Below, in pieces: positions 13,878 to 53,890 of a stretch of DNA of 64,000 nucleotides (within the stretch, counting starts at the first letter, position 1; each line of letters opens with the position of its first letter). The position numbers were made by a program, and so were the translations under genes. Origin of the DNA: Amphibalanus amphitrite (lineage: Eukaryota; Arthropoda; Thecostraca; Balanomorpha; Balanidae); assembly GCF_019059575.1 (NCBI RefSeq), contig NW_024881584.1:337501-401500 (forward strand), given 5' to 3'. The notes beneath the pieces were generated by a model, which did not search any database, was not told the DNA's origin, and worked only from the letters and a program-made list of their open reading frames with translations.

Positions 13878-14058
13878 GTTGATTAGTTGCTGATGTTGAG
13901 CAGCACGATGATTCAGAGCATACGTTGTTATGCTTAGAAGCCATGCAATGCGCGGAACGTTACGTTATCTGTGGCCATTACGTTAAGTGCGAACGATGCG
14001 AAACTCAAAAAACGTAACTTAATTCACGATAATGACGTTAGAGCGAACGACGATATAA

Positions 14059-16152: not shown

Positions 16153-16900
16153 AGAGGGTTGGAAGCCCATGAGACGGAGACCGTTGGAGGGAGCTGCAGG
16201 ATCGATACTGTTAGAGATGGCCGCAGTAAGCAAGTCTCGTTACTGGTATTAGTGTAACAGCACGCATTGTATTTAGCCAATGAACTAAAACGCCGGCCTC
16301 CGCTGAAGGAGTAGCATTTGATACAATAGCAAATACCACATTACCTATTTCTAATCCGTCTACCTAGCCCAAACTTCCATAATCTTCCTTATCTTATCCG
16401 AACAATATTCAACGCAATGTGCGGATGCCTTCCTAGTTCCTACTCCCTTCCGCCCTCCCCCCTCCGATAGGTACTTAGGTAGGTAGTGCCATGACCTTTG
16501 AGGCTGTGACCTCTTTTCCGAGACCATGTTTGGCCGGAATCGCGATTCGGCGTATGTCGGCTCTCATTAGCCGCGCGTTTGCAAGCTTTTCGTGGTTTCA
16601 AACGTTCTCAAACATGTGATTTGATGTTGCTCCCATACTTAGGGTGGGTGTCAAGGTCACCTGAAGGTCAGGTCAGGTCATTGACCTTTGGTGACCTCGG
16701 TTCACTTTTTCAGGTCAGGTCAGGTCATTGACCTTTGGTGACCTCGGTTCACTTTTTCGAGTTTTACATGTTTCTAGGCTAGTTTTTTTTTTAAGCTGAA
16801 TTCGAATTTAGAAACCATTTGAACATTTACGAAGTAGTTTTGGTGCCTTCGTAACATGTCACGAAGCTGTCAGAGGCGGTTGACACGTATTACGATTACC
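16153..16900. other. No gene recognised
   Basis: There are several AGGTCAGGTCA runs, with one 60-bp direct duplication near 16670-16760. I see no coding frame of interest. Confidence 0.4.
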
Positions 16901-24630: not shown

Positions 24631-25806
24631 CCCGCGCCCCGCTGGGCTATTCAGCCATACGCGCCCTGCTGGGGAGGGGGGCAGATTCTGCCACCCCCTG
24701 TCTAACTTCCGAACCGATGGTCGTAGAAAGACGGGGAAAACGGCAATCAAAAGCTCTCAACAAGGCGGATCTTAAGAGCCGATTTCTTTTGCTTAAGTAG
24801 GCCAGAGGTCAGGTCAAGGTCAGGTCAAGGGTACAAAATGCAAGTTTCTACAGTATCGGCCTTGCACCGTAGTTGCCGAAGCATGGACTGAGACTGATTG
24901 CCCAAAACGTGTTCTTAGACTACCAAGACAATATTCGTTGCATACAATGTCATTCAAAGGTCAAGGTCAAAGTCAGGTCAGGTCAGGTCAGGTCATCAAA
25001 AACAAAATATAGAAAAGGGCATGTGCGACACATGATTTATGGGTCATTTTACTCATAGAATTCAATAGTTAGGCACACTCAAGAAGTGATATGGACCACC
25101 TCTGGATGAATTTCAGGTCGAGGCCAGGTCAAGGTCAGGTCAAGTGAGGTCAAATTTTGAAATTAGTTGTTAAGGTCTAAAAAGGTGTCTATCTGATGCA
25201 GTTTTTCACGGCGAATCGAATGGTGCTATTTTTGTTTCCATACGAGGTCTAAAGTAACCTTCAAAAAAATCATTTTTCAAAATTTTTGTGTGTCGTGACA
25301 TCATAAAATTTTGCATAACTCCCACATTTTTGAACCGATTCTTCTAAAAATTGGTATGTAGGTACACATAGACCACTTCTCTGACATATCTTCCAGTTTT
25401 TTCGATACATTTAAGTTTTGGATTTTATAATTATTTTCCCAAAAAACGTCAGTTTTTTAAGAAAAAAATGGGCCAAAATTAATTTTTTTTTAAAAACCGA
25501 GATAGCCATTTGATAGACAACGTAGAATCACGCATAACCTTTTTTTGTTACGTCTTGATTCCTTTAAAAATGAAGATGTTAGCGGCGTTTGAAATTTTGC
25601 CGTTTTTGAGGCGAAAATGGCGAACATGACGTCACTAAAACGTTAATGTCTCAAACAATTTCCGACGGATTTCGCTTAAATTTTCAGGGAACGTGTCAAA
25701 TTGATGTATGATAAGGTACTCAAAGTTTACGTCGCTGGCGTAACGCGTTTATAAGTTATTGGCGAAAAACGGGAGGGGCGGATTCTGCCCCCCAGCGGGG
25801 CGCGGG
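24631..25806. mobile_element. TTAA-class element, complete
   Basis: Inverted ends CCCGCGCCCCGCTGGG are flanked by TTAA at 24627-24630 and 25807-25810. It is a close relative of 50777-53125 and carries the uninterrupted GGATCTTAAGAGCC (about 24768-24781) at which the sister copy has an insertion. Confidence 0.88.
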
Positions 25807-31494: not shown

Positions 31495-31845
31495 CCTATG
31501 GTAACTTCCGTGACCTTTTGATAAAGTCAGGCGCTCCTACATACACTAATCGTGACAATAATGTCATACCTATTAGCGATTCAAGTCAACATTTTGCACA
31601 CTCAACAAGACGGAATGTCATGGGCTGAGTGCTCTATTGTACTCGTACTTCGTAGTTAAGCACTAAACAGTCTATTAAATGTTGGCATCATCTGTATTAC
31701 GATCGCCTGGTAGCGTCATACACAAATACAAAATACATTTCAAGGGGGTGGACAATGATCATTGCCCATCCCTCCACGGCCCAGTTCCCAAGTCACTCCA
31801 ACACTAAGGTAGACGAGATTCGTTTTGTTCTCCGGTGTGTGTCCG
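31495..31845 (-). other. Region downstream of the SLC7-like gene, probable 3' UTR
   Basis: It lies just after the stop codon of the transporter gene. I saw no clear AATAAA on the minus strand before the TTAA-class element at 31490. Confidence 0.35.
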
Positions 31846-32012
31846 TCACTGTCCGGGAGGCTCGGTGTCGTGGAGCGGGCTCGGCGGCCGGCGGCCGGCC
31901 GCCGCTCCGGCGCCCAGCGGTCTCAGGCCCAGCAGGTCCGTATGCTGCAGCACGGCGACCCCCGGCTCCGGCCGGCCGGGCCGAGCTCCGTGCACCGCGT
32001 ACACGAGCAGCC
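31846..32012 (-). CDS. SLC7-like gene, last exon
   Basis: The acceptor GCTCGGCAG is at 32013-32021. The exon starts in phase 1 and reads LLVYAVHGARPGR, the last half helix and start of the C-terminal tail. The tail of about 45 residues ends HDTEPPGQ and a TGA stop at 31846-31848. Confidence 0.85.
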
Positions 32013-35000
32013 CTGCCGAGCCGACAGCAGCGGTCAGAGGACCCGAGGCCGCCGTCAGAGGACCCAGCCACCACCCCACCACCCTCTCCCGGGGGCCGGT
32101 CAGAGGACCCAGCCACCACCCCACCACCCCCTCCCGGGGGCCGCCGTCAGAGGACCCAGCCACCACCCCACCACCCCCTCCCGGGGGCCGCCGTCAGAGG
32201 ACCCAGCCACCACCCCACCACCCCCTCCCGGGGCCGCCGTCAGAGGACCCGGGGCCGCCGTCAGAGGACCCAGCCACCACTCCCTCCCGGGGGCCGCCGT
32301 CAGAGGACCCGGGACCGCCGTCAGAGGACCCGGGGCCGCCGTCAGAGGACCCGGGGCCGCCGTCAGCGGACCCAGCCACCACCCCACCACCCCCTCCCGG
32401 GGGCCGCCGTCAGAGGACCCGGGGCCGCCGTCAGAGGACCCAGCCACCACTCCCTCCCGGGGGCCGCCGTCAGAGGACCCGGGACCGCCGTCAGAGGACC
32501 CGGGGCCGCCGTCAGAGGACCCAGCCACCACCCCACCACCCCCTCCCGGGGGCCGCCGTCAGAGGACCCAGCCACCACCCCACCACCCCCTCCCGGGGCC
32601 GCCGTCAGAGGACCCGGGGCCGCCGTCAGAGGACCCAGCCACCACTCCCTCCCGGGGGCCGCCGTCAGAGGACCCGGGACCGCCGTCAGAGGACCCGGGG
32701 CCGCCGTCAGAGGACCCGGGGCCGCCGTCAGCGGACCCAGCCACCACCCCACCACCCCCTCCCGGGTATCTCAGTAGACGGACATAAATATTCGAACCGC
32801 CATGACCTCCAGCAATAGCGTTTCCTAGTCTCCCAGCTTACATAACTCGCGCCCACTAAAAGGAATTGGGAAGGAACACTGATTCCAACAGCCTACTGTA
32901 GCAGTTTGTATCCGCTCCAGGAAAAGACTGGTCGCTCTATAGCGCTTTGCTGTCGAAACACGTTAACATCAAATGAAAATAATGTACCATGCAGCCTTCA
33001 CGTCATACCCAATCTGACACAAAAGACACACGAGTGGAGTGCTGGTACCATAATGTAACAGAACACAGCACGAGCTGGCGGCGGTGGCTGCAGCGCCCGG
33101 CTGGGCGGCGCCGGCGCCTCCTACCTGCGGCCAGGCAGGCTGCCAGCGGCGCCCACACGTGCTGCAGCAGGGTGACGAGGCCGATCAGGATGAGCAGCAG
33201 CGCGGCGCAGGGCAGCCACGGACAGCCGGGAGCCTGCAGCTCAGCGTGGCAGGAGCCGCACCACGGCTGCCTGGGGACGAGGGACACACATCAGTCGGAC
33301 ACAGGAGCCGCACCACGGCTGTCTGGGGACGCGGGACACGGGACACACGTCAGTCGGACACGGGACACACATCAGTCGGACACAGGAGCCGCACCACGGC
33401 TGTCTGGGGACGCCGTACACGGGACACACACCAGTCGGCACAGCACACACCCACCAGTCGGCGCTCGCAGTATGCACACCCGGTTGGCTGGCAAAGTACA
33501 TACACGATATTAGTATTGATGTCTGCCTGCGGGAAAGCCGACGGGTAAACATTATATCCACAAACATGGAAGCATCTGTCTGTACTCGGTAGGTGACGCT
33601 GGTGCCGGGCAGAATATGTAGGTATGTAAGTACCTACCTACTGAACATAAGCGTAACTTTATATCTCTTTGTGGGTGCTCAAGCACCCCCAATCCTGAGC
33701 TCGGCACCCCCTGCCTTCTTAAAGCACCCCCAGCCTCCTCAAAACATTCCCAGCTGACTCAAGGCCCTCAATAATCAGAATGTCCATCTCCTAGTACTGT
33801 AATGAGCCCAGTGAATCATGCAAATACTATGCTTACTCAATTCAGTGACTAAGAGAATATACATTGAATAAATCACCACAAATTAAGATGCATGACATTT
33901 GTGTTAACATTACATCTGATATTATCAGGGGCCCGGGAACCATTTTCAAGTTGGGGGGGGGGGGGGCGAGCCTAAAATACCTGACATGATGCATATGAAA
34001 CAGTGGCATAGCTAGGGGTCTAAGGGGACACGTAGTACGTACCCCCTACGGCCTACCCCCCATCGAGTTCAAAGGGACCCTCGGGTCCGAGAGGCCCTGC
34101 GGCGCCATTTGACCGCTGAGGGTTAACGATGCCCATATTTCTACTCAGAAGGGCCCCGTGGGGCTCGTTAGAGCACCTCATGGGCCCTAAATAGCCACAC
34201 TAACGTCTCCATAAGGGCCCCACGCCGACTTCTGAGGGCCTCTTGCGGCTTTTAAGGACACCTCGGTGGTCTTCAAAGGCCTGTTAAGCCTGAAACAGAC
34301 TCTTTCCGCAGTCAGGAAATCGCATGCGAGAGCCTATTCAAATACATGGAAGCACGCTCGCATCAATCGCACGCACCTCCCGCGAGCGATTGATGCGAGA
34401 GGAATTACAATGTATTTGAATAGGCTCTCGCATGCGATTTCCTGAACGCGGAAAGAGTCTACTTCAGCCTTTACTGGCCTCTGAGAGGTCTTACCGGCCT
34501 TTGAGGGGACAGTTCTAGGGGCATTTCCTACCTGTGATGGTCCCACACTTATTTTTCTAAGGGCCCCATAACGGCAACTATGGGGCCCTCGTCGGTGCCT
34601 ATGAGGGCCCACACCGGTGTCTCTGAGCGTTTCACACCCCCAACTGAGTGTCTACACCAGTGCCTATTAAAGCCCTATATATCGGCGGCTCTGAGGACCC
34701 AACAGTCAACACCTGTGCATCTAAAGGCCACCCACTGATGACTTGAGGGCCCCACAACGGTGACCCTGAGGGCCCCACCGGCGTCTGACAGTACCATGCC
34801 GGTCTCTTAGGACCCCGTGCAGGACTTCTTCTGCCGGCCTAAGCCCTAAGGACCCCTTGCCGGTCACTGAGACCCCCTGCCGGCTTGTAGAGAGTTCGCG
34901 TCAGCAGCTCTAAAGGCCCCACACCCGTCTGTAACGGCTGTACACCAGCGTCTATGAGGGCCCGGAGCAACGCCTGTAAGGACCCTCATCGGCGCCTCTG

Positions 35001-38000
35001 AGAGAATCACACTAGCACCTCTGATCGTCCACACCGGCACCTGCATGGCGGCCCCACACCGGTGCCTCCCTTACCGGCGGCTCTGAGGGCCTTACGCCGG
35101 TGATTCTGAGGGTGCCACCGATAACTCGACACCTTTTTTTAAACCCCACATTTGTTATCCGGTGAATTTCAGACAAGTTGGTTAGAGACCTTCAAAAAAG
35201 GTACAATCACTCGATTTTTCTCAAGTTTGTCTGTCTTGGCAGATAAAGCAATACCAGAACAGGCCTACGAACACACATATTTGATCAGGATCGGACGATT
35301 GGACACTTTTAAAAGGAGATCTTTCGTGCCTCCCGGAAATTCACGGGAGAGCAGATGTGGGGTTTAAAAAAGGTGTCGAACTGAAGGCACCACACAAGCC
35401 CTTAGCGTAGCTGAGCTTTAATCCCATACCGGCCCTCCGAGGGCGCCACGTCAGTGCACTCATTGCCCCACATCCCTCCCTCACACCCGGAGCGGGTAAA
35501 CTGTGTTATACCTATAGCAACGATTTTACCACCGTTGTACGTTATGTATTTCTCAAAGTTGACTCAAAATGGTCCAGTACAAAATCTGGCCTGCCAAACT
35601 TATGGCCAAGGTCAGGCCCAAACACGTTTTGGGCTATCAGTCTCAGTCCATGACTCCATTCTTCGGCAACTATACGGTGCAAGGCCGATACTGTAGAAAC
35701 TTGCAATTTGTACCCTTGACCTGACCTTGACATTGACCTCAAACTTTAAATTAAGTACATGTTTTTAGTTATTCGTGATGAGATCTTTCGATTGGCGTTT
35801 GAATTTTCCAAATCGGACCATTAGTTCGGGAGATAACAGGGGGGTAAAATTTATCCCCCCAGCCTCGCGCGTTCGGCTGGAGATCCCAGCCCCGCGCGGG
35901 TCAATGCATTGGGTGAGCCAAAATTGTTTTACAGTGGCGCTATTAAAACAAGCTCTCGAACCGATTAAACATCATTTCTTGCATGATGCCTGATGGCTAC
36001 AGTAAAAAAGAACAGCTAAAAAAACTACAAAAACTATGGCATGCCTTTCTGAAAGCTATTGAGCACCCCCAATAATTTTTGGAAAACTACACCCATGCTA
36101 CTGAATGCAGAATACCGAGCAGACAATGTGCTTTTATTTACGTTCCTTACTGACAAATCACAAGTCTTAAAAAAGCGAACGCATTTCCGTACCATTTCAC
36201 ATAATTTATATCACACATTTACAGCATAGGCGGCGGAACGGGGAGGGCACCGGGGCACCGTGCCCCCCTTTGATTTTGGCATTTTAACATTAGCCCTATG
36301 GGCGTTGCATGGAAAGAATGGGACCAAAAGTCGGCAGTGCCCCCCTTAATTGAGGGTGTTCCGCCGCTACTGATTTACAGAAGCAATATCATTCGCTCCT
36401 AGTGATGTGAATGACAGATAATAAACCCGCGCCCTGGTGGGTACGAGGGGAGCATTTTTTGCCCCCTCCCGAGACCCGACTTTTCCATATATTTCCAAAA
36501 CCACTGCAACCGATTTTCACCAAACTTTCAGTACCCTCCCGACACCAATTTTACACATTGTGACCAAAACTTTCAAAGGCTATGATAGGTTGGCCGCAAA
36601 TGACGTCAGAGTGGTGACGTCATGCTCTGCCATTTTTGACCCAAAGAAGGCTTCGCGGGAAGAACTGTCAGGCCTATAGCTTTGAAGATACAGATAAATG
36701 TTTCCAAATAAAAGATGTATAAGTACCAGGGCTGTCTTGAAATTTTAAATTTTTGGATTTAAATATTATTTTTGGGATATGATTGTTAAAAATTAAAAAA
36801 TATAGTTTCGAAAAACCGGAATATTTGTGATATTCCCTACAGACTTTTACTCACATACCAAATTTGAGATCGATACCTCTTTGTTTTTGGCTAATTTACT
36901 CGTATAGCGAAAAACTGTTCAACATTGATGACGTCAAACTTTGATACTCATTTCTTTAGCAACTCTAGACCACGTATTGCAAAACAAAGGCCACCATTAG
37001 ACTCCCCGTGACGAGCTGCATCGAATAGAGATACCCATTTTATGCAAAAATATCAGCTTTGAATTTTGACCTTTTTGACTTGACCTTGCCCTGACCTCCA
37101 CCGGCGCGGGTTAAGAAAACGGTACCAAACCAAATACCAACCATATCATAGGAAAATGCAAAAAGAACCAACTCGGGAACTTGAATGAATTACAGCTTTT
37201 ATCAAATTCAGAATATCTAATACCTAACTAGTGTGGATACATAATACTGATGATAAAGCAATACATAAGGACTGAAGCATCAACTGGTATTTACATCAAA
37301 AAGTTGGTATCGCGATTGACATCTGTAGATTGTCGATTGAGATCCGAGTCTCATTTTTTGCTTGAGATCCAGTGAGATCATAGATCCTCACTTATTTTTC
37401 GACAGCACAGAAATCCCCCAAAAACTCTTGTTGCAACTCACAAACGCTCTGTTTTAGTAATTGTATGTGATTGCACGTCATAATCCATAGTTTTGTGGGA
37501 CTTATTGATAAAGAAACCCTTTAGAACATGGTTTCAAATGCTGTGTATGGTGGGATCCACTCAGATAATAGATCCATGTCCTTGATTTATCGTCAGATCG
37601 TATGAGATCATAGATCCACGAAAATTTTTCACGCCGGATCCGATGGAATCATAGGTCCTAACCTGCAGGTTGCTTCGAGATCCACTGAGATCATAGATCC
37701 ATCACTCGGATCCATGCACATGTCTGCCTGGAGATAACGGTCCTCACCAGGTGATGACGTAACTGCAGGGAGGACGGAGCCAATGGTATATAGCCTACCT
37801 GGAGATAACGACCGTTACCTAGAGATGGCCTACCTGGCGATGACGGCGCCGAAGGCGGCTGCTGAGACGAGCAGAAGCGCCGTGACGAGTGACGTCAGTG
37901 GGTGGGCAGTGTGCGGCGCGGCGGTGCGCGCCACTAACGCCGCGCCCAGGCCGGCGCCGCAGACGACCAGCGCGGCCACGGCGATCGCCACGCGCCGCGC

Positions 38001-41000
38001 AGAGGCCGGCGTGGCCTCCTGGCGCAGCAGCAGGCGCGGCAGCGCGCTGGGTCGGAACTGGCGGCACACAGCACACGCCACACACAGTCGGCCGGCGCGC
38101 ACTGACACAGCGTGCCTCACCGCCGGATAGCTGGCCACAGTGCCGCTACAACAGTATAGTGTGTTTAACAACATTTTAAGTCATAAGTACGGTTTAATTA
38201 TCAGTTCCCAGTGAGACCAAAACCCGTCCACCTGGACCGAGTGCTGCCGGAGGTCACCCGCCTGCACCGAGTACTGCCGGAGGTCACCCACCTGCACCGA
38301 GTGCTGCCGGAGGTCACCCGCCTGCACCGAGTGCTGCCGGAGGTCACCCGCCTGCACCGAGTACTGCCGGAGGTCACCCACCTGCACCGAGTGCTGCCGG
38401 AGGTCACCCACCTGCACCGAGTGCTGCCGGAGGTCACCCACCTGCACCGAGTGCTGCCGGAACTCGGCCACCACGGCGTCGATGTCGGTGTCGTCGCTCT
38501 CCGGCTCGGACAGGTCCGTTTCGTCGTCGTCGTCGTCGTCGTCGTCTGCGGCGTCGTGGCTGAGCAGCAGCCGGCGGCCGGGCGGCGGTCCGCAGCTGCA
38601 GGCCGGGTGCGCGCCGCCGCGCTCGGCCGCCAGCAGCGGAGTCCGGTCGGCGGCCGGCGCCGGCGCCGCCGTCTCGATCACGGCCACCTCGTGGCCGGCC
38701 TGTGCCAGCCGCTGGGGCAGCAGGCCCAGGCCCGCCTTCAGACGGCACAGCGGCGCCGTGCCGCGCTGCCGTCCGCCGGACCGGCGCGCAGCCGCCGCCG
38801 CCGGACTCACCAGGTCAGCGGTGCCTGCTGAGGCCGCGTAGCGCTCCAAGAGGGCGCGGCAGAGCAGCGCAGCTGCCAGCAGCAGCTGACAGCTGGCCGC
38901 CAGCCGCAGCAGCTGCAGGGTGCTCAGCAGGCCGGCGGCGGCCGCGCTGACCAGCGCTGTCAGCGCGCCGCCGGCGGCGGGAGCGGCCAGCGCGGCCGGC
39001 GCCAGGCCGTCGGCGGCCAGCGCCGCCAGCAGGACGCCCTGCGGCGCGGCCAGCTCCACCAGCAGCAGCGAGAGCGCCACGAGCGCGCAGCAGCCGACGG
39101 CCAGCTCGGCGCCGCGCAGCCCCCGCGCGCCCAGCCCCGGCAGCGCCCACAGCGGCCGCTCGGCGCCGCTGTCGGAGCGCGTGTACCGTCAGTGGTCCGC
39201 TACACACACCCACAGCGACACTGAGCGCCGGACCGGCGCGGCACGGCGGCAACCAGGACCAGACCATAGCGCACAAGGGCCAGTCCCTACAGCTTACAAA
39301 ACACCCAGTGGAAAGCGCACCAACAAACGGCAAATAGCGTATATTGACCGAGCTGCTAAAAGCTAAGGATAGGGGAGAGTGGTGCAGGAGGCCCCCCCTT
39401 AAGCTCAGTTACTATTTTTAGACAACTGATAATATTTAAGCGCTAACGTGTGCATGCGCTGTGAGCATGCATCATTTTCCCATACATATTTGCATTCAAA
39501 ATGAATCCAGGGGGTACACAAACCGTAAACTTTAACATTTTGGAAAAAGTTGCAAAAGGGCCTCTTACACTATGGGTATGGTAAGACGCCCCCCCCCTCG
39601 GGCGTTTTAAAAGTCAAGTCGACTTGTAAAAGACGCTTTGCGAACACAGCTGCAAGGCCTTTTATTTCGAAAAGCTAAGCAAATACGGTGTTATCGAAAC
39701 CAATAACACTTCCAAAGCGCTCGAACAATGCGAAAACTAGCACAACCAAACGCTGATGACCAACGAAAATTGTACCTATAACCTCTAAGAAAAGAAACAG
39801 AAAAAAGAAACAAAAACAAACTCCTTGAAAAAAGAATGCCACGCCTGCCGCAGGTGCAGGCGTTTTAGCATCGGGGGCGTTTTTTATCGGGGGGCGTTTT
39901 ATCATCCTCGAAGGGAGGGCCTCTTAAAAAAATACAGTGTTTTAACGTCCACAATATTTATGGTTTATGAGACATTTGCAGCGCACCAGAACATGGTCTA
40001 TTCTGAAGCTAACATGTGACAATTTCGATGAGAAAAGATTGCATTTGATAGCCATTGTTTTTTTCAGATATATAAGGGTGATAAAGATGCATATATCTAG
40101 CAAGTAAAGGGGCAAAAACAGAAACAGGCTTACCAAAAGTCGCTGCGACGCACCTGATACCTCAGGTTTCGTGAGTTGTTGTTTCAAGAGGGCTTCTGCT
40201 TTACAAGAACATTAAAAAATAAATAACATTATTGGTTTGGTAAAAAAAGCGATGGGGCCTCTTACCGACCCTGGGCGTCTTACACGGATCTCCCCTACTT
40301 GAAGGCCAAAATAAAGGAATTCGGTTGAAATGTTTTTAGGTCTTTTGCATGGCTCCCTAATGGATCCAAAGTTAAGTTCAACAACGGTAGGAAACTGGCA
40401 AGGAACAACGGTACAGCAACGGGAGGAAACTGGCAAGGAACAACGACCAGCTCGTCAGGTCGGCATCCGATAGCCAGCGAGCTAGTGGCCCTAAACTAGT
40501 TTCGACTTTCCCGGAAAACACGAGGAGTGCCTGTTACAGGGCTCAGCGGCTGGTATGGTAGCCGAATTGAAGATCAACTCAACCGGTGACCTCCGATGTC
40601 AGATAAAAGTGACAAAAGCCAGACTAATTCTGTAAAAAAAAAAACAACTCGCCAAAAAGTTCACAGAACTACGATTTTTGGCACCAATCTGGCATTTTAT
40701 TGTGCTCACATTAGGTAGAGGTGGGTGGCGGGATGCTGCGGTACTTGTACTCACCCCTGATAGTGCTGGACCAGGGCGACGCTGCTGGCCAGGCAGCAAT
40801 AGACGAGGAAGAGCAGGCCGCAGGCGGCGGCCGTCAGCCGGGCTCCGTCCCAGCAGTGGTGTCGGGAACGGGTGAGTCGGAGCGGCGGCTCGGGGCCGCG
40901 CCACATGACCACCGAGTACAGGGCGCACGCCTCCACCAGCTGACACACAGACACAGTCAATACATCGTCTGACACACAGTCAACACACCAGCTACTGATA

Positions 41001-44000: not shown

Positions 44001-47000
44001 TCTCCCATTTTCGGCTTTCCCCGCAGTCCGGGGCAACGCCGAAAAAGTCACTTCTTTGATATTTTTAGTTTGTGCGCTTAACGGTATGCGAATTCATCAA
44101 ATGCGCCTGGTATGTTTGAAAGGCAAAAGACTGGCCTCTCGAATGACGCCAACAAGAATAGCTTATGTTGTCTACCTTGCGTGCTACGGGCGTCAGAAAA
44201 AAAAGTATTCGGCGTTCCCCCAACTTCCCCTACTAATGTTATGCGATGCATGTTTTATGGCCAGTTTTTCATTTCCAACTCAATGGTGTTGGTTATAAGA
44301 CCATCAGGTACGGTTTAGGTCACTTTCTGGTGGAGGTCAGGTCAAGGTCAGGTCAAAAAAGGTCAAATTTCAAAGTTGATATTTTTGCATAAAATGGGTA
44401 TCGATTCGATGCAGCTCGTCACGGGGAGTCTAATGGTGGTCTTTGTTTTGCGCTACGAGGTCTAGAATTGCTAAAAATTGAGTTTGAAAGTTTGACGTCA
44501 TCAATTTTTAACAGTTTTTCGCTATAACTTGGCCAAAAAAGAGGTATCGATCTCAAATTTGGTATGTAGATAGAAAGCGGTAGGGACTATCACATATATT
44601 CCGGTTTTTATCGAAATTAAAAAAAACTTTTTAGATTTTTTGGCTATTATATTAAAAAAAATCTATTTTTTGATTTTTTGGGGTCAAAATCCAAAAAATT
44701 CGAAAAACCGAAATAGCAGTTTTGTAGCCCTTTTGATCCCACACCTCTTATGTCTGAAACATTTTTCTGTATCTCTAAAGCTGTAGGCCTGACAGCTCTT
44801 CCCGCGAAACCTTTTTTTGGGTCGAAAATGGCAAAAATGACGTCACTCTGACGTCATTAGCGGCCAACCTATCGTAGCCTTTGGAAAACAATTTTGGTCA
44901 CCATGTGCGCTAGCTGCTCCCGGGAGAGAACTGAAAGTTTGGTGACGATCGGCGCAACGGTTCTCGAGATATATTGACAAAACTAAAGGGGGGGGGGCAA
45001 AAAATGCCCCCCACCGCCTGGAAGGTTAACAGGAAGGCCCTGGGGCCCTGATAGTGCCGCCCCGCGGGCCCGCGGCAGCTCCGATCCGGCCGCGGTGCCC
45101 TCTCCAGCGCTGCAGCACTGCGCACCACGGCTGCTCGCCGGGGCTGTGGCTGGAACTGGTGCGGGCCGTCCCTTCGACTCGGCTGAGGTTAGAGTCGGTC
45201 TCTGACGGCCCCTGTGGCCCGGCGGCCGCTCTACGTGTACTGTGGCCCGGCGGCCGCTCTACTGTGGCCCGGCGGCCGCTCTACGTGTACTGTAGCCCGG
45301 CGCCCGCTCTACTGGCGCCCGGCACCCGCTCTACTGTGGCCCGGCGCCCGCTCTACTGTGGCCCGGCGCCCGCTCTACTGTGGCCCGGCGGCCGCTCTAC
45401 TGCGGCCCGGCGCCCGCTCTACTGGCGCCCGGCACCCGCTCTACTGTGGCCCGGCGGCCGCTCTACGGTGGCCCGGCGGGCGCTCTACTGTGGCCCGGCG
45501 CTCGCTCTACGGTGGCCCGGCGGGCGCGGGCGGGCGGGAGCCCACGGCCGGGCCGGCGGGCGCGGGTGGTAGTCCATCCCACGGCCGGCGGGCGCGGGTG
45601 GTAGTCCATCCCACGGCCGGCGGGCGCGGGTGGTAGTCCATCCCACGGCCGGCGGGCGCGGGTGGTAGTCCATCCCACGGCCGGCGGGCCCGCGGAGGGC
45701 TAATGCGGCCCGGCCCGGCCAGTGGCCACCTGCGACCACCGGCTCCCGTTGGGAGGCCGTTGGCGCTGACCGGCACAGTGGCGCTTCCGGCGCGGACCGA
45801 CCCGCCGCGCCGGCGGCCGATACAGAGCCGACCAGACGCTCGGCGAATTAAAACAGCTACCGACCGTGTTCACACCGACAGCCAGGAAATACAGCTGGCA
45901 GGCTGGGAGGCTGGCGCTTACTGAGCATTAGACAAGGCTGCTACATTTCAAGGATGCTCCTACTTTCAGTCAGAAATATGCGTTTAATAGAAAAGCTTGA
46001 AAGACTTATCTGACTACCAGTTATCTACTACAATTACTTATCCTTTCACATAGATTATCGAATTTCTCCCACATCAGACATTCTCAGAGACCTCCACCGG
46101 CTCTTTATTGAGCTCTAGCATACACCGTCAGAGAAGTATCTCCTATCCTTCGGTCAAATAAGAGGCCCCGCACTCGGCCACCACCTTACTGATGTGGCGT
46201 CTGCAGCGAATATTGCTGAAACGTGGCCGCACAGGACAAACAGACACGATCCTGGGTTCCCTGCTCTCACAAGACCAGCAGTTAACATATCAAAATTGAT
46301 GGCAATGTAACCCTAGTCTGGTGAGGTATTCATGTGAACTGGTGAGCGGCAAATTTTGTTCCCCCTCCACTGCCCGCGGGCAGTGGACAGTGGACAGTGG
46401 ACGGTGGACGGTGGACGGTGGACGGTGGACGGTGGACGGTGGACGGTGGACAGTGGACAGTGGACAGTGGACAGTGGACAGTGGACAGTGGACAGTGGAC
46501 AGTGGACAGTGGACAGTGGACAGTGGACGGTGGACACTCACGCCGACCAGTCCCCGCGGCAGCAGCGGCTGTCCACCCCAGCTGGCGCTCTCGGTCAGAA
46601 AGGCGGCAGAGACGGCGAATACGGCCGCCGCGGAGAGAGTACTGAGCAGCACCAGAGCGCGCAGCCAGCCGGCGCTCTGCGGAAACAGCAGAGTCCTCCG
46701 TCAGCGGGTGGCACAGCGCATACAGCTCTCAGACACAGCGCAGACAGACCCCAGACACAGCGCAGACAGAGCCAGACACAGCGCAGATAGACCCAGACAG
46801 ACGCAGCACAGACAAAGCCAGACACAGTGCAGACAGAGCCAGACAGAGCCAGACACAGCACAGACAGAGCCCAGACACAACACAGACAGAGCACAGACAC
46901 AGCACAGACACAGCACAGACAGAGCACAGACACAGCGCAGACAGAGCCAGACAGAGCACAGACACAGCGCAGACAGAGCCAGACAGAGCACAGACACAGC

Positions 47001-50000
47001 GCAGACAGAACCAGAGACAGCCAGACACAGCACAGACAGAGCCAGATACAGCACAGACACAGCCAGACACAGCCAGGCACAGCTAGGCAGAGTCAGACAC
47101 AGCACAGACAGACCCCAGACACAGCACAGACAGAGTCAGACACAACACAGACACAACACAGACACAGCACAGACAGACCCCAGACACAGCACAGACAGAG
47201 TCAGACACAACACAGACACAACACAGACACAGCACAGACAGACCCCAGACACAGCGCAGACAGAGCACAGACAGAGCCAGACACAGCACAGACAGAGCAC
47301 AGACAGAGCCAGACACAGTACAGACAGACCCCAGACACAGCACAGACAGACCCCAGACACAGCACAGACAGTACCCAGCGCTAGCTCCTTGTGAATCCTT
47401 CCTATCTTAACCCTATTCCTGGCGGGGGGGGGGGCCTCAGGAGCCCCCCCCCCCTGAGGTTTTTTGGTTATATCTCCCAAACGCGTTGAGCTAGGGAGCT
47501 CAAATTTTCTGACTTTTCCTAAAAGGCTTCTACGCAACATGTCTGAAAATTTTGAGTTGATCTGACCTCAGGTCAGGTCACCAGAGGCGGTTTGGTGACG
47601 CTACCTCAGAAAAGTTTGCAATCACGCCAGAGCTAGAGTTTTTGACCGATCAATTTCTTCTCTTCAGGGTTTAGTTAGGGTACCAGTATGTGCAATTTGT
47701 ATATCTCGGAATTTTGATATCGGTGACCTAAGGTCAGGTCAATTTCGCGACCTCCCCATTATAAGTCAATGGGGGAAAAATCAACTCCCTGTTTTTACCA
47801 CTAAAACGGGTCGGAATGGCCCCATATACCATACATGACTTCTAATACGATCAACCTTCACTACCTTGAGGTCTGTTTTGCTGTTGGGCAGCTGTGAGGT
47901 CATGTGACGTCATCAAAGGTCACCAAAGGTTTTTGGCCAATAACTCCGTACAGGAACAAGATACAGACGCGTGGATGGTCTCATTGTGTTCAGCTCGTCA
48001 AGACGCATCGAATGATATACATGATGACCTCGAGGTCACGTGACCTGAGGTCAACCTTTGACCTTGACCTTTCGAGGTCAACATATATATCATTCGATGC
48101 GGATTGACGAGAGGATCACGATGATGCCCTTAGTTTGTTCCTATCTTGACTAATTCGAAAGTTATTCGAGAAAAACTCTCTCCATATCTAGTGCCGCCAT
48201 TTTGACTTTTTCGACCCCTGTGACGTCATCTTTGACCTGACCTGAAAATGACCTTAGTAAAAATTGTAGATCTTGGCCGTGCGTATCCGATGCCGTTTAC
48301 CGATTGTCGCTATCTTGCTTCGTTCTCGAGATCTCAGGGGGGGGGCCGAATCGGCCCCCCCCCCCCCCGCCAGTTTCTTGTCCCGGCGGAGCCCGCCAGG
48401 AATAGGGTTAAGGTTCGGAGTTCGGACTAAATTTATATAAAAAAAAAACGTTATATGCGAGTATGGGTAAAAAATCATCAGAGCTGTAAAAAGGCTTATG
48501 AATCGGTCTGCAAACTGTTCAGTTTAATCACTTCGAAATTATGTGGCGCTTTTCGTCCTCATTATCACCAGCATTAATCATTCGGACCATACTCGACACA
48601 GAAATTGGTTTTACTGTTCAGTGCTCATTTCTTGAAACAATAGAATACATTCCTCAACTTCTAGTATATAGACCAAAAAACTTCAGACCTCAATGGGACA
48701 GCGCGAATGGCTGGCCAAATTGGTTCCTTTGAGAACTGCTCCAAGCGTCTCACTCGGCGGTATCATTTGTCGAGAGCTGATTGCAGGGGACCAGGAAACC
48801 GCCGCCGGGTTACTGATTAACGCTGGATACCGACAGCACCAGATCGGACTACCTACATTGTGGCCGCACGACATAAACAGAACGCTGGCACAATATCGAA
48901 GGACAGAAACAAAGTGTTGAATAAAAACGGGTACCTACAAATCAATAGACCAACATGAGCAATTCTTGTTTCCGCAATGGTGCTAACAAAAGCGTGCAGA
49001 CATATGGAAGGCATGTCAATGACCCAACTTGAAAATCAGGCAGAAGTTGGAAGGTGTCGTCATCTACCTGCGATAAGATAAGCTATCGATTAGAATTATC
49101 AGCGGTGAACCCGGCACCGGCAAGGTCGGGTGAATGGCGGTGAATCCGTGCTATATTTCGCATCGAGCGCCGCTTAGTGTGGTTGTCGGACCCAAAGTCA
49201 CTCATTCATTCACTCCGATTGAATTTCCGAAGAAGGTCTTGCTTGCATACAACGACAGGTAAGCCCAATGTCTTTATACTGAAAGTGTGTGGAGCTCAAT
49301 CGTAAAAAAGAAGGGTTGGCACTTGGCAACACATCAGCGAAGAACACTGCTCAAGATGCCCGGGATTCGTCTGAACAATATCAGGGCTTTTTCAAAATTT
49401 CGTAGTTATTCAGTATACCGTATAGAAGAAGGTGGCTGAGGCCCCAATCCCAAGCCATTCATCCCAAAGCTGCCTAACTTTCAACCGGAGGCCCTCCAAA
49501 GTTGATCTGTATGCCATCCAAGAGCTTCTAGCGACGAGTATCAAGTGCTTAGTTAACCCGCGCCGGGCCGGTGCTCGCTCTGAGATTCCGCGCCGGGCCG
49601 GAGGGGGGGGGGGGTGTCTGAACACCCTCCCCCTTCTAACTCGGCTCCTGGACCACGTAGTGACACGCGGAAAGCGGCAATCGAAAGAACGTCCAAAATA
49701 AGGACGAAAACACTTCAGGTCATTTTTTTGGGTCAGGTCAAAGGTCAGGTCACCAGAGGTCACCAAAGGTAAAATGTTGACTATTTCAACATTTTGGAAA
49801 CTGCCGACGGCTATCTCGAGAACTGATAGAGCTACAACACCGCGGGAAAGCACATTCGATAGCCCTTTTACACACCTTTCTGAGTAATGTTCTCAGATTT
49901 GGCCTCAGGTCAACTGTTTAGCCTCCAGAGGGCAAAAACTCCAAAAATAGCCGTTTTTACGAAAAACGTTTTTTTCGGCAATAACGTTTGACTCAAAAGA

Positions 50001-53000
50001 GCCATGACATTACTTTTACTAGCATCGTGTTCCTCTCGTCGAGACGCGTCGAATGAACTATAATTTGACCTTGAATGGTCAACTTGAAAATTTGACCTCA
50101 GGTCAAGGTCATGACCTGACCTGAAAAGGTCATGTTGCATATCAGTCGATCCGCAACGTCGAGCAGAACACATCTAAGGCGTTTTTAGCGCTCTAGCACG
50201 CCTCTATCAGAAGTTATTAGCGAAAAACTGTTAGATTCTGTTCCAGACCTGAGATGACCTCGGGGACATAACGAGGGGTCAGAGTTGCCATTTTCCGTTT
50301 CAGTGTGTCATTTTACCTACATCTCGATGTTTGAGAGTGTCTAGAATAGCGTTCCTGCGAAACAGACGCTTTTCAATTTTCTCCCATTGACTTATAATGA
50401 AGAGGCCGCAAAATTGACCTGACCTTAGGTCACCGATATCAATATTCCGAGATATAAATTTTATAGATAATGTTGCTCTTATAATAAATCGCTGAAAGTT
50501 TCAAGGCAATCGATCAATCGATGTAGCTACAACGAGCATTCTTTTTTTCTGAGGTGAGGTCACTTGGCGTAATCTGGTGACCTGACCTAAGGCGACCTGG
50601 GTCTGAAATTTTCACAAAATGTGCGAAAAAGATGCTGCACAAACAGGTGTGCCAAAATATCTGCGAGATATCTGCGAAAACCGCAGGGGGGGGGGGTGTT
50701 CAAACACACCCCGGCCTGGTGCGGGTTCAAACCCTGGAAATCCATTTAGCGAGTGCTTGGATTTCAGCCCTGTTAACCCGCGCCCCGCTGGACTATTCAG
50801 CCATACGCGCCCCTGTCTAACTTCCGAACCGATGGCCCGTAGAAAGACGGGGAAAACGGCGATCGAAAGCTCTCAACAAGATGGATCTTAACCCGCGCGG
50901 GGCTAGGAGGGGTAAATTTTACCTCCCCTCGCGAATTTATGCAATATCTCAAAAACGGCCGCGCGCAGCACCGCCAAACTTTCAGTACCTTTTCTTACAT
51001 CAATTCGACACGTTCCCTGAAAAGTTGAGCGAAATCCGTCGGAAATTTTTTGAGAAATTGACATTTTAGTGACGTCATGTTCGCCATTTTCGCCTCAAAA
51101 ACGGCAAAATTTAAAACGCCGCTAACATCTTTAATTTTAAAGGAATCAAGATGTAACAAAAAAGGTTATACGTAATTCCACATTGTCTATCAAATTGCCA
51201 TCCGGGTTTTTGAAAACTTTGAATTTTGGCCCAATTTTTTCCAAAAAAAAAACTGACTTTTTTGGAAAATAATGATAAAATCCAAAATTATGAGTGTATC
51301 AAAAAAAAAAAAAAACGGAATATATGTCAGAGGAGTGGTCTATGTGCACCTACATACCAATTTTTAAAAGAATCGGTTAAAAAATGTGGGAGTTATTAAA
51401 CATTTTATGACATCACGACACACAAAAAAAATTGAAAAATGATTTTTTTTGGACGTTCTAGACCTCGTACGGAAACAACAATAGCACCATTCGATTCGCC
51501 GTGAAAAACTGCATCAGATAGACACCTTTTTAAGCCTTAACAACCAACTTCAAAATTTGACCTCACTTGACCTGACCTTGACCTGACCTCGACCTGAAAT
51601 TCATCCAGAGGTGGTCCATATCACTTATTGAGTGTGCCTTTTGAGTTCTCTGAGTAAAATGACCCATAAAACATGTGTCGCACATACCCTTTTCTATATT
51701 TTGTTTTTGGTGACCTGACATGACCTGATCTGACCTTGACCTTGACCTCTGAATGATATTGTATGCAACGAATATTGTCTTGGTAGCCTAAGAACACGTT
51801 TTGGGCAATCAGTCTCAGTCCATGACTCCATTCTTCGGCAACTACGGTGCAAGGCCGATACTGTAGGAACTTGCAATTTGTACCCTTGACCTGACCTTGA
51901 CCTTGACCTTAAACTTTAAATTAAGTACATGTTTTTAGTTGTTCGTGATGAGATCTTCGATTGGGGTTTGAATTTTCCAAATCGGACCATTAGTTCGGGA
52001 GATAACAGGGGGGGGGGGGGGGTAAAATTTACACACCCCCAGCCCCGCGCGTTCGGCTGGAGACCCCAGCCCCGCGCGGGTTAAGAGCCCAAATTTTTTT
52101 GCTTAAGTAGGTCAGAGGTCAGGTCAAGGTCAGGTCAAGGGTACAAAATGCAAGCTTCTTGCAGTATCGGCCTTGCATCGTAGTTGCCGAAGAATGGACT
52201 GAGACTGATTGCCCAAAACGTGTTCTTAGACTACCAAGACAATATTCGTTGCATACAATGTCATTCAAAGGTCAAGGTCAAGGTCAGGTCAGGTCAGGTC
52301 AGGTCACCAAAAACAAAATATAGAAAAGGGCATGTGCGACACATGTTTTATGGGTCATTTTACTCATAGAATTCAATAGGCACATTCAATAGGTGACATG
52401 GACCAACTCTGGATGAATTTCAGGTCGAGGTCAGGTCAAGGTCAGGTCAAGTGAGGTCAAATTTTGAAGTTGGTTGTTAAGGCCTAAAAAGGTGTCTATC
52501 TGATGCAGTTTTTCACGGCGAATCGAATGGTGCTATTTTTGTTTCCGTACGAGGTCTAGAACTTCAAAAAAAAAACATTTTTCAAAAAATTGTGTGTCGT
52601 GACGTCATAAAATTTTGAATAACTCCCACATGTTTTAACCGATTCTTCTTAAAATTGGTATGTAGGTGCACATAGACACTTCTCTGACATATATTCCGGA
52701 TTTTCGATACACTCAAAATTTTGGATTTTATGATTATTTTCCCCAAAATGTCAGTTTTTTAAGAAAAAAATGGGCCAAAATCCATTATTTCCAAAAAACC
52801 GAGATAGTCATTTGATAGACAAAGTAGAATCACGTATAACCATTTTTGTTACGTCTTGATTCCTTTAAAAATGAAGATGTTAGCGGCGTTTGAAATTTTG
52901 CCGTTTTTTAGGCGAAAATGGCGAATATGACATCACTAAAACGTCAATTTCTCGAGAAAAAAATCCGACGGATTTCGCTCAAATTTTCAGGGAACGTGTC

Positions 53001-53518
53001 AAATTGATGAATGATAAGGTACTGAAAGTTTGACGTCGCTGGCGTAACGCGTTTAGAAATTATTGGCGAGAAACGGGAGGGGGCAGATTCTACCCCCCCC
53101 CCCCACACCCCCAGCGGGGCGCGGGTTAAAAGCCCGTCCATGACAGTGTCCAAGTGACTGTTGGTGACAGTGTTGACAGCTCTCAGTACAGCTCTCAGTG
53201 CAGACCAGCGACCCACCTCCAGGCCCAGCGCCAGCAGCGCGGCCAGCAGGAGGCAGACGCCGGCGGCCAGCGGGTCGGCCGTCACGGCGCCGCCGCCGCC
53301 CAGCACGGCGCGCACCAGCTCCGCCAGGTGGCCGCCGGTCAGCTGGTCGACGGTGGCGCTGAGCGCGCGCGCGCCGGCGGCCAGCGCGGCGGCGCGCAGC
53401 AGCAGAGTCAGCGCGCCGGCCGCCGCCGCCGCCAGCTCGCCCACGCCGGCGGCCGCCGCCGAGTACAGCGAGACGGGCGGCTCGGGCCGGCGCTCCGCCA
53501 GCTCCGCCGCGTACAGAC
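31846..53518 (-). CDS. SLC7/CAT-type amino-acid transporter, 5' end not seen (7 exons)
   Basis: Exons at 53217-53518, 46542-46676, 40755-40939, 38442-39168, 37834-38057, 33125-33270 and 31846-32012 give 1,886 coding bases (about 628 codons). All introns have GT...AG, and the phases 0, 0, 2, 0, 2, 1 agree across each junction. The protein follows CAT transporters, SLC7A4 most closely by memory: LYAAELAERRP for CYAEFGARVP, LLAALAADGLAP for the MAADGLFF segment, LLLAAALLCRALLERY for LLAYTFVATSIIVLRF, and AVIARQP plus VYAVHGARP for the last helices. The family moves cationic amino acids across membranes; vertebrate SLC7A4 itself has no proven substrate, so the substrate here is unknown. Helix 6 lacks the usual GFD and EE residues, so function may have shifted. 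Helices before LYAAE (about 80 residues) must lie further upstream. Confidence 0.88.
32013..32770. repeat. 18-bp GC-rich minisatellite with a 365-bp higher-order unit
   Basis: Units CCGCCGTCAGAGGACCCG alternate with CAGCCACCACCCC blocks. The block pattern 32190-32398 recurs 365 bp further on, at 32555-32763, which shows a higher-order duplication. The array starts about 25 bp upstream of the last-exon acceptor. Long frames on both strands across it are repeat artefacts. Confidence 0.92.
33125..33270 (-). CDS. SLC7-like gene, exon coding the penultimate helices
   Basis: The acceptor CGTCCCCAG and the donor GCAG|GTAGGA bound 146 bp. The frame reads QPWCGSCHAELQAPG then a hydrophobic helix LPCAALLLILIGLVTLL and VWAPLAACLAA. 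It corresponds to the segment after RQPES in CAT proteins. Confidence 0.87.
33271..33450. repeat. Tandem repeat carrying copies of the exon 33125-33270 acceptor
   Basis: The unit (57 to 80 bp) contains AGGAGCCGCACCACGGCTG followed by TCTGGGGACG. On the minus strand this is CCCCAG plus about 22 bases of the exon start. The true acceptor is at 33270/33271; copies lie at 33322/33323 and 33403/33404. Confidence 0.85.
33560..34276. other. Intron sequence with transposon traces
   Basis: CAGTGGCATAGCTAGGGG near 34002 resembles a hAT-type end, but no partner end was fixed. From about 34060 on, blocks of GGGCCCC words begin. Confidence 0.4.
34060..35120. repeat. Degenerate GGGCCCCACACCGG minisatellite
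   Basis: Loose units of 22 to 35 bp built on GAGGGCCCCACACCGGTGCC run through the region on both sides of the palindrome at 34277-34480. They are strongly diverged, so the array is old. Confidence 0.75.
34277..34480. mobile_element. 204-bp palindromic MITE
   Basis: The left arm starts AGGCCTGTTAAGCC and the right arm, read in reverse, AGGCCAGTAAAGGC. Further in, GACTCTTTCCGC and GGAAATCGCATGCGAGAGCC are perfect in both arms. The arms are about 80 bp and can form a long hairpin. One arm recurs at 26302. Confidence 0.85.
35126..35379. mobile_element. 254-bp inverted-repeat element
   Basis: The ends are TCGACACCTTTTTTTAAAC and its near complement at 35350-35379, continuing with CCCCACAT and GTGAATTTC in both arms. 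No target duplication was clear. Confidence 0.7.
35540..35900. mobile_element. Right part of a TTAA-class element
   Basis: It matches the right part of the complete copy 50892-52080, including GTTCGTGATGAGATCTT-like words and GCGCGTTCGGCTGGAGA, and ends CCCCGCGCGGG before TCAA. Confidence 0.7.
36225..36372. mobile_element. hAT-like MITE, 148 bp
   Basis: The ends CATAGGCGGCGGAAC and (reverse complement) CAGTAGCGGCGGAAC are flanked by the 8-bp word ATTTACAG at 36217-36224 and 36373-36380. An 8-bp duplication and CA-starting ends fit hAT. Confidence 0.88.
36426..37110. mobile_element. TTAA-class element, short copy
   Basis: The left end CCCGCGCCCTGGTGGG follows TAAA and the right end GGCGCGGG precedes TTAA (37111-37114). 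The interior resembles 17280-18820 without the SINE. Confidence 0.75.
37115..37690. other. Repeat-like intron sequence, no gene
   Basis: The part to 37330 is similar to 28340-28570 (ACCAAATACCAA words). Then GAGATCATAGATCC-type words recur several times at irregular spacing. Confidence 0.45.
37690..37833. repeat. Degenerate repeats of the exon 37834-38057 donor
   Basis: The words CTACCTGGAGATAACG, TTACCTAGAGATGG and TCACCAGGTGATGACG echo the true exon end CTACCTGGCGATGACG. On the minus strand most contain an AGGTA core like the real donor CCAG|GTAGGC. Confidence 0.65.
37834..38057 (-). CDS. SLC7-like gene, exon after the large loop
   Basis: The acceptor TGCCGCCAG, chosen for phase 0, and donor CCAG|GTAGGC bound 224 bp (74 codons plus 2). 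It reads FRPSALPRLLLRQEATPASA then two helices ending AAAFGAVIA. The 5' edge is the least sure of the exon borders, since TTGTAG at 38150 is an alternative that would need another upstream phase. Confidence 0.8.
38229..38471. repeat. 30-bp minisatellite copying the exon 38442-39168 donor, eight units
   Basis: Eight units of CCGAGTGCTGCCGGAGGTCA plus CCCACCTGCA run head to tail. On the minus strand each unit ends an RQHSVQ stretch with CAG|GTGGGT (four copies) or CAG|GCGGGT (three copies). The unit is 10 codons long, so the frame stays open through the array. Confidence 0.92.
38442..39168 (-). CDS. SLC7-like gene, large exon: helices and cytoplasmic loop
   Basis: 727 bp in phase 2 at the acceptor (CTCCGACAG) and 0 at the donor (CAG|GTGGGT). 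It encodes GARGLRGAELAVGCCAL, helix VALSLLLVE, LLAALAADGLAP, then two further helices ending CRALLERY. A loop of about 120 residues follows with a run of eight Asp near the end, longer than usual in CATs. The exon is very GC-rich and alanine-rich. Confidence 0.88.
39372..40295. mobile_element. Mariner/pogo-like non-autonomous element
   Basis: The ends GGGGAGA are inverted and flanked by TA at 39370-39371 and 40296-40297. Subterminal TTAC...GGCCTC words appear in both halves. 924 bp without a transposase frame. Confidence 0.7.
40298..40754. other. Intron sequence, no gene
   Basis: One near-perfect direct repeat GGAAACTGGCAAGGAACAAC occurs at about 40391 and 40425. Nothing else stands out. Confidence 0.4.
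40755..40939 (-). CDS. SLC7-like gene, exon for helix 6 and 7 region
   Basis: The acceptor TGTGTGTCAG and donor CAGGG|GTGAGT bound 185 bp. It reads LVEACALYSVVMWRGPEPP, then GARLTAAACGLLFLVYCCLA. By position this is helix 6, the loop and helix 7 of CATs. The family's GFD and following Glu residues are replaced. Confidence 0.8.
40940..41460. repeat. 29-bp minisatellite copying the exon 40755-40939 acceptor
   Basis: About 15 to 17 units of TGACACACAGACACAGTCAA plus TGCACCAGC run head to tail. On the minus strand each unit holds TGTCTGTGTGTCAG|CTGGTG, the same as the true acceptor with the first six exon bases. 29 is not a multiple of 3. Confidence 0.92.
41528..42685. mobile_element. TTAA-class element, complete
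   Basis: The left end TCCCCGCCATGCTGG follows TTAA (41524-41527) and the right end CCAGCACGGCGCGGG precedes TTAA (42686-42689). The hairpin GGGGCGTTTTCACGCCCC lies inside the left end. Confidence 0.82.
42924..45025. mobile_element. TTAA-class element with a pogo-like insert
   Basis: The ends CCCGGCAGGCGGTGGG and (reverse complement) CCTTCCAGGCGGTGGG are flanked by TTAA at 42920-42923 and 45026-45029. Outside the insert 43333-44230 it follows 14059-15256 closely. Confidence 0.85.
43333..44230. mobile_element. Pogo/mariner-like non-autonomous element
   Basis: The ends GGGGAAGTTGGGGCA and GGGGAAGTTGGGGGA are inverted, with TA at 43331-43332 and 44231-44232. Inner words GGGGCAACGCCGAAAA resemble the ends. 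The sister copy near 14445-14460 shows the empty site CAACTTTACTAAGG. 898 bp, no transposase. Confidence 0.85.
45046..45700. repeat. Two GC-rich minisatellites
   Basis: From about 45210 to 45530 units of 20 to 24 bp based on CCCGGCGGCCGCTCTACTG run in tandem. From 45540 to 45690 a 32-bp unit with GGTGGTAGTCCATCCCAC repeats four to five times. Frames across them are artefacts. Confidence 0.88.
45701..46379. other. Intron sequence, no gene
   Basis: GC-rich to about 45850, then AT-richer. No repeat or frame was recognised. Confidence 0.4.
46380..46541. repeat. 9-bp minisatellite at the exon 46542-46676 donor
   Basis: About 17 units GTGGACAGT or GTGGACGGT end within 10 bp of the donor. On the minus strand the donor is GTGAGTGTCCACCGTCCACT, so the array begins inside the first 15 intron bases. 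Confidence 0.9.
46542..46676 (-). CDS. SLC7-like gene, exon for helix 5 region
   Basis: 135 bp, phase 0 at both ends; acceptor TTTCCGCAG, donor GGC|GTGAGT. It reads SAGWLRALVLLSTLSAAAVF, then AVSAAFLTESASWGGQPLLP and RGLVG. This matches the CAT segment with WSADEGGFAPFGFSGV in order and spacing. Confidence 0.87.
46720..47390. repeat. Degenerate CAGACACAGC minisatellite
   Basis: Units of about 11 to 22 bp (CAGACACAGCACAGACAGAG) fill the intron upstream of the exon 46542-46676 acceptor, starting about 45 bp from it. Long frames on both strands are artefacts of the repeat. Confidence 0.9.
47411..48407. mobile_element. TTAA-class element, complete
   Basis: Perfect ends CCCTATTCCTGGCGGG are flanked by TTAA at 47407-47410 and 48408-48411, with G-run/C-run hairpins inside. 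The interior is nearly the same as 1535-2040. Confidence 0.9.
48412..48451 (+). repeat. Tail fragment like the SINE at 17745
   Basis: The word TTCGGACTAAATTTAT followed by an A-run is the same as the tail of the 17745-18097 SINE (about 18071-18097). Only the tail is present. Confidence 0.45.
48452..49550. other. Mostly unassigned intron sequence
   Basis: AT-rich with no repeat that I recognise. A small open frame at 48693-48920 (plus) is listed separately. Confidence 0.4.
48693..48920 (+). CDS. Small open frame, hypothetical
   Basis: 75 codons starting MGQREWLAKLVPLRTAPSVS and ending QYRRTETKC. The composition looks protein-like, without low complexity, and an AATAAA overlaps the stop. I do not recognise the protein. 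It lies inside an intron of the SLC7-like gene on the other strand. It could be chance or an exon remnant of an old element. Confidence 0.2.
   Translation: MGQREWLAKLVPLRTAPSVSLGGIICRELIAGDQETAAGLLINAGYRQHQIGLPTLWPHDINRTLAQYRRTETKC
49557..50725. mobile_element. TTAA-class element, complete
   Basis: The left end CCCGCGCCGGGCCGG follows TTAA (49553-49556); the right end CCGGCCTGGTGCGGG precedes TTCAA. A partial second copy of the left end follows at about 49588. Hairpins lie inside both ends. The interior matches 41528-42685. Confidence 0.8.
50777..53125. mobile_element. TTAA-class element hosting another one
   Basis: The ends CCCGCGCCCCGCTGG are inverted, with TTAA at 50773-50776 and 53126-53129. 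It is a sister of 24631-25806. The copy 50892-52080 sits in it near the left end. The right end lies only 91 bp from the exon 53217-53518. Confidence 0.88.
50892..52080. mobile_element. TTAA-class element inserted in a sister element
   Basis: The left end CCCGCGCGGGGCTAGG and right end CCCCGCGCGGG are flanked by TTAA at 50888-50891 and 52081-52084. The sister copy at 24631 has only one TTAA at the same place (GGATCTTAAGAGCC). A G-run and a C-run hairpin lie inside the right end. Confidence 0.92.
53217..53518 (-). CDS. SLC7-like gene, first exon seen
   Basis: 302 bp, acceptor GCTGCCGCAG, donor GAG|GTGGGT, entering in phase 1 and leaving in phase 0. It reads LYAAELAERRPEPPVSLYSA, VGELAAAAAGALTLLLRAAA, ALSATVDQLTGGHLAELVRA and LLLAALLALGLE. 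This follows CYAEFGARVP...GELW...W(S/T) of CATs through helix 4. The exon with helices 1 and 2 is upstream and was not found in the window. Confidence 0.88.
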
Positions 53519-53529
53519 CTGCGGCAGCC

Positions 53530-53890
53530 GCGGGCCAGGGACTGAGCAACAGACCAGCGCAGAGGCACCTCAGTACAGACCAATACACACACCAAAACAC
53601 ACCAGTCAGACCAGCTCAGAACACTGCACACTAGCACAGACCATACAGACCACTACAGACATACAGATCACTACAAACATTTTCAGATCAGCACAAACCT
53701 GGAACCTGTAAATAAGAAAAGGTGAATACATACTAAAGCAAACATATACCAAACCAGTACAGGCCACTAAATATTACTAGAGACCAGAAGAGACCAGTAC
53801 AGAGTAGAAGAGACCAGCACAGATCAGCGTAGACCAGTGCAGAATAGTGCAGACCAGTACGTATGATACAGAGCAGTGCAGACCACTGCG
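53530..53890. repeat. Degenerate CAGTACAGACC minisatellite upstream of the first exon seen
   Basis: Loose units CAGACCAGTACAG of 10 to 14 bp run through the stretch. On the minus strand the core GGTCTGTACTG repeats the acceptor-exon start G|GTCTGTAC of 53518. Confidence 0.7.

Follow-up and report, generated by a model that had tools for sequence, protein, structure and literature searches.

The window, a 64,000-nucleotide stretch of an Amphibalanus amphitrite contig, carried a predicted CAT/SLC7-like gene on its minus strand. Seven exons were mapped on open frames and consistent splice phases: E1 (53217–53518), E2 (46542–46676), E3 (40755–40939), E4 (38442–39168), E5 (37834–38057), E6 (33125–33270), and E7 (31846–32012), which contains the stop codon. 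E1 also showed a weak CAT1 match; it is the first exon mapped, and earlier 5′ exons were not found. All exon borders of this gene are predictions based on open reading frames, the phase of splicing, and a weak homology. The phases of the seven exons agreed over all six introns, the chain ended in a stop, and the joined exons encoded 627 residues. The GC3 value was 0.91, and GC content ranged from 0.71 to 0.82 in the exons and from 0.46 to 0.70 in the introns.

In the phmmer search, residues 16–111 of the product matched CAT1 (9uat_A) with 17.4 bits and an E value of 0.012. Two more CAT1 stretches were collinear with the first, each non-significant alone. The joined protein showed an AA_permease_C match at its C-terminus (E = 4e-4, 20.9 bits, below the curated cut-off of 27) and no AA_permease_2 match, and the seven exons searched singly against Pfam gave nothing at E 0.001. 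The phase-consistent chain agreed with the original prediction of seven exons; the CAT1 and AA_permease_C similarity was weak, and the curated family threshold was not reached. We read the locus as a putative CAT-like member of SLC7 that has diverged strongly and is extremely GC-rich; its likeness to the family is weak but consistent. A DNA search of the assembly with exon 4 returned the self-match and six weak matches, with no second copy, and no second copy of the 31500–32500 stretch was found in the assembly.

Tandem arrays stood at several exon edges of this gene. At the E4 donor (38442), TRF detected a 30-bp unit in 7.8 copies at 38228–38461 (minus strand), and the unit held the last 20 exon bases together with the donor. 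The E3 acceptor (40939) was covered by a 29-bp unit in 15.8 copies at 40934–41381 (minus strand). Beside the E6 acceptor (33270), an 81-bp unit at 33271–33450 (TRF 33281–33450, minus strand) gave two decoy copies of CCCCAG plus about 20 exon bases. In the stretch 37730–37833 (minus strand) at the E5 donor (37834), the CCAG/GTAGGC edge recurred in a small number of degenerate copies; TRF listed no array there, the copies being too few and too degenerate. The unit thus comprised the splice junction and exon bases at the E3 acceptor, the E4 donor, and the E6 acceptor, and more weakly at the E5 donor; the TRF units (29, 30, and 81 bp) were of minisatellite size.

Three further arrays on the minus strand lay near a junction without copying it. 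A 7-bp array of 22 copies (46381–46536) began 5 bp into the intron after E2, an 11/65-bp array (46712–47371) stopped 35 bp short of the E2 acceptor on its upstream side, and a GC-rich array of 21/47-bp and longer units (32047–32766) likewise stopped about 34 bp before the E7 acceptor. These had been predicted to stand within 10 to 45 bp of a junction. TRF arrays were present at six of the eight places originally named, the nearest array to 53518 being at least 118 bp away. Repeats had been claimed at six of the seven exons; at a TRF score of at least 50, an array within 50 bp was found on five of the seven exons and at 6 of the 13 mapped exon edges.

Copying of the junction was measured by local alignment of 25 exon and 10 intron bases with the next 220 intron bases, and the introns of other genes served as controls. 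The E4 donor scored 60 (0/29 controls as high, best 17), the E6 acceptor 55 (0/37, best 18), the E3 acceptor 32 (0/37, best 17), and the E5 donor 27 (0/29, best 19). Junction copies were therefore clear of every control at 4 of the 13 window-gene edges, and the E5 donor proved to be the weaker case it had been taken for. The arrays at the E2 and E7 edges showed no junction copy in the alignment test. The E1 acceptor (53518) was rejected as a junction copy: its score of 18 exceeded the best of 37 controls (16) by a margin of only 2, and GGTCTGTAC was found once in the 401 bases upstream. Among the four arrays said to repeat the junction itself, those at 40939, 38442, and 33270 were upheld and that at 53518 was not.

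The original prediction knew of no named system of this kind. However, tandem repeats across exon–intron boundaries have been named "mirages" in amphioxus, where they were described in Adh3, the globins BflGb6 and BflGb9, PGBD5, and other genes (PMC3087553, PMC3902484). Their units measured 10–72 bp in Adh3 and 150–160 bp in the globins, many copies retained AG or GT, and copy number varied among haplotypes (PMC3087553, PMC3902484). RT-PCR in amphioxus suggested regular splicing at mirages, and mirages were proposed as raw material of new introns (PMC3087553). The repeats described here share with them the minisatellite-like structure over 5′ or 3′ exon–intron boundaries. They differ in occurring in an arthropod, several in one gene and at further edges of other genes; only for the amphioxus mirages is there support for regular splicing. 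No report of mirages outside amphioxus appeared among the titles and opening lines of abstracts in the literature matches listed. New here are mirages in an arthropod, a gene with several of them, and a rough frequency. Intron gain by tandem genomic duplication is related in that sequence bearing splice motifs is duplicated in tandem; in that model, an exonic AGGT is duplicated to give a new intron, whereas the copies here derive from a junction that was already present and lie in an intron that was already there (PMC3443670).

We then consider the placement of the arrays. The six mapped introns held eight arrays of 100 bp or longer, and six of these lay no more than 50 bp from an exon edge. 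Random placement gave a mean of 0.35 arrays near edges, and none of 200,000 trials reached six; with repeats cut out the mean was 0.69, and 4 of 200,000 trials reached six. The only arrays of this length away from exon edges were two adjoining ones in intron 2 with 22/28-bp and 32-bp units (45212–45522 and 45551–45689). When these were merged, six of seven arrays lay near edges, compared with means of 0.30 and, with repeats cut out, 0.61. Arrays at 53753–53860, upstream of E1, were excluded from the placement test because the other end of their intron is unmapped. The clustering of arrays at the edges of this gene exceeds chance; as the gene was picked by eye, this excess describes the gene and not the genome.

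Such clustering might arise if younger transposons filled the deep introns and left only the edge zones as old native intron. Repeated sequence, found again elsewhere in the genome or within its own intron, made up 8,688 of the 19,787 intron bases (search over introns 1, 2, and 5; best 40 candidates scored), and about 4.4 kb of it was high-copy at 94–99% identity, which favors this explanation. However, the excess survived the cutting out of repeats (0.69 expected, six of eight observed), and this explanation does not account for the copying of junctions. We therefore regard transposon exclusion as possible but rather unlikely.

For a comparison with other genes, we used the assembly that holds the window (807.55 Mb, 2644 contigs). 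The cuticle domain Chitin_bind_4 marked this genome as an arthropod's and not that of amphioxus: out of 705 candidates, the 150 matches scored and listed exceeded the cut-off. The sample consisted of 66 exon edges (37 acceptors and 29 donors at 41 loci) from matches to PF13520, PF00209, PF00083, PF00063, and PF00069, and their borders are predictions based on the splice consensus and the profile matches. The 55 edges called were reduced to 34 distinct ones, 33 were added from 20 small loci, and one (L081 donor) was removed for its short flank; two pairs of similar edges are still within the 66. Five edges were placed by hand (the donors of L042, L096, and L081 and the acceptors of L054 and L058), and those of L042 and L096 had initially been put on a decoy copy. 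Loci found via DNA similarity (L001–L005 and L028–L034) were kept out of the sample.

Junction copies on the intron side were observed at 4 of the 66 edges (score of at least 30, lowest 31; 95% interval 1.7–14.8%), namely the L016 acceptor and the L042, L087, and L096 donors. Each had at least two extra copies, some of them degenerate, and none of 2144 swapped junction–intron pairings reached a score of 26. A RING gene (L003) showed three full acceptor copies, including the real one, plus partial units; this biased find was made through array similarity and therefore stands outside the 66-edge count. With it, acceptors (L016, L003) and donors (L042, L087, L096) were both affected. Copying in the sample was centered on the junction. 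Test windows starting 10–25 bp inside the exon matched best (4–5 of 66 edges; 4 of 66 at 15–25 bp), those starting 0–30 bp inside the intron matched at 2–3 of 66, and those starting at least 60 bp inside the exon matched at none. The window gene and other genes thus showed what the original prediction had proposed, local duplication of exon edges in tandem with decoy splice sites as the result. The window gene has unusually many mirages; this outlier, picked by eye, differed from the sample with P 0.02 at a score of at least 26 (4/13 vs 4/66) and P 0.08 at a score of at least 30 (3/13 vs 4/66).

The background of duplication differed strongly between coding and non-coding DNA. In exon interiors, 1 of 1158 windows was duplicated (allelic loci retained). 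Among intron windows within 300 bp of the edge, leaving aside the junction window, 10 of 272 were duplicated; at 300–1300 bp the count was 19 of 918, confined to four flanks with L054 contributing 14, and in positions 1–31500 of the window it was 36 of 900. Compared with exon interiors, the junction rate of 4/66 was far higher (P 4e-5). Fisher tests against the three non-coding sets gave P values of 0.28, 0.06 (odds ratio 3.1), and 0.29, respectively. Junction duplication is therefore far above the level of exon interiors and not clearly above that of non-coding DNA.

This result bears on the claim that duplication is seeded at exon edges, in which exon edges would actively promote tandem duplication, with R-loops, pausing, or the high GC content of exon ends as conceivable causes. 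The six edge-hugging long arrays, the higher GC content of the exons compared with the introns, and the odds ratio of 3.1 over windows 300–1300 bp away point in this direction. Against it, there was no excess over near-edge intron or over the first part of the window. The enrichment of TRF arrays near splice sites that had been proposed as a check did not appear in the sampled genes either (1 of 34 edges vs 31 of 748 control bins). As the junction rate is not clearly above that of non-coding DNA, seeding at edges is unproven, and we consider it unlikely.

Copy number at these arrays was compared between contigs. Many family matches were paired at equal or near-equal score on two contigs; therefore both haplotypes seem to be retained in the assembly, and the allele comparison assumes that contig pairs are haplotypes. 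The donor array of the SNF gene had one more 34-bp unit in L044 than in L042, with near-identical flanks. Between L096 and L101 there were substitutions and small indels, and one of these changes abolished a decoy GT, while L087 and L102 were identical across 256 aligned bases and L018 and L019 over the whole locus.

The junction-copying repeats of the window gene are, in our view, probably mirages that arose by ordinary tandem duplication and are tolerated because the surplus copies leave with the intron. Tandem duplication of a short segment across the junction would come first, and slippage or unequal exchange would later alter the number of copies. The extra copies lie within the intron, beyond the junction that adjoins the exon; they would be removed with the intron and would thus be close to neutral as long as the exon-adjacent copy is spliced. 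We infer splicing at this copy and, with it, that junction-straddling duplications are tolerated like intronic ones. Comparable duplications within an exon would be purged, and the rate of 1/1158 in exon interiors is as expected in that case. Against this explanation, uniform neutral placement leaves the six of eight edge-hugging long arrays unexplained, even with repeats cut out.

The decoys could also be functional, that is, used to give length variants (at E4, with in-frame 10-aa repeats) or unproductive regulatory transcripts (at E3 and E6). All seven extra donors at E4 (four GT and three GC) would be in frame and free of stops if used, and each of the 14 E3 acceptors found by pattern (TGTCAG or CGTCAG) is followed by a stop at the fourth codon. 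Human UBC offers a parallel, in that its splicing runs through dual-specific sites arranged in tandem, each tandem repeat bearing a splice site; the UBC repeats are coding and variably spliced, whereas most copies here are probably intronic (PMC10809524). On the other hand, an open, in-frame 30-bp unit is not improbable by chance. The E6 decoys, whose exon side would start at 33322 and 33403, would lengthen the exon by 52 and 133 bp, out of frame, and the amphioxus mirages reportedly leave splicing undisturbed (PMC3087553, PMC3902484). A functional role therefore appears improbable. An assembly artefact or wrong exon borders is very improbable: near-identical contig pairs exist in the assembly, GC-rich repeats can misassemble, and the product homology is weak, but the array was on both contigs in all four pairs compared from genes other than the window gene (L096/L101, L087/L102, L044/L042, and L018/L019), and the exon phases close over all six introns.

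Earlier evidence on mirages rests on a handful of amphioxus genes in the papers found. Mirages in an arthropod at a countable rate, together with a copy-number difference between contigs, suggest that minisatellite turnover generally produces them as a by-product, and they offer another system besides amphioxus for asking whether splicing ever uses a decoy junction. Copied exon edges may seed new splice sites and introns. More speculatively, and with considerable doubt on our part, junction-spanning duplication might be genome-wide in this lineage, affect several percent of exon edges, favor edges, and act as a continuing source of alternative splice sites, of protein length variants that stay in frame, and of new introns. 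If so, the birth of introns and exons by mirages would be observable between the haplotypes of one animal.

Several other repeats were observed. A 10-bp GACCT-rich array (L018 1265–1505, identical in L019) abutted the acceptor of an AA_permease exon. On contig C43 of G000, family matches were mirrored on opposite strands (for example, 29375 minus and 868916 plus; 51019 minus and 848431 plus), and this contig is a large inverted duplication, either real or an assembly palindrome. In the window, an element of about 1 kb (47406–48412) adjoined the 46712–47371 array and had 39 further copies at 98–99% identity among 40 places scored; these copies are a recent burst. Intron 5 contained a high-copy element of about 2.45 kb (33646–36099) with copies mostly at 94–98% identity, and intron 2 an element of about 0.9 kb (43331–44233) with 38 further copies at 96–98% among 40 places scored. 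An inverted repeat pair of about 0.93 kb (50966–51909 and 52116–53041, 89% identical) occupied intron 1. Two retroelement-like reading frames lay side by side on the minus strand, at 9210–13964 and 5728–9126; we take the former to be a gag-pol-like long frame and the latter a non-LTR reverse-transcriptase-like frame. The minus-strand frames at 60193–63900 are presumably a LINE-like endonuclease and reverse transcriptase. Many short AGGTCA-type tandem repeats were also detected by TRF across the window (14390–14586, 16665–16758, 24806–25153, 43258–43316, and 52109–52460).
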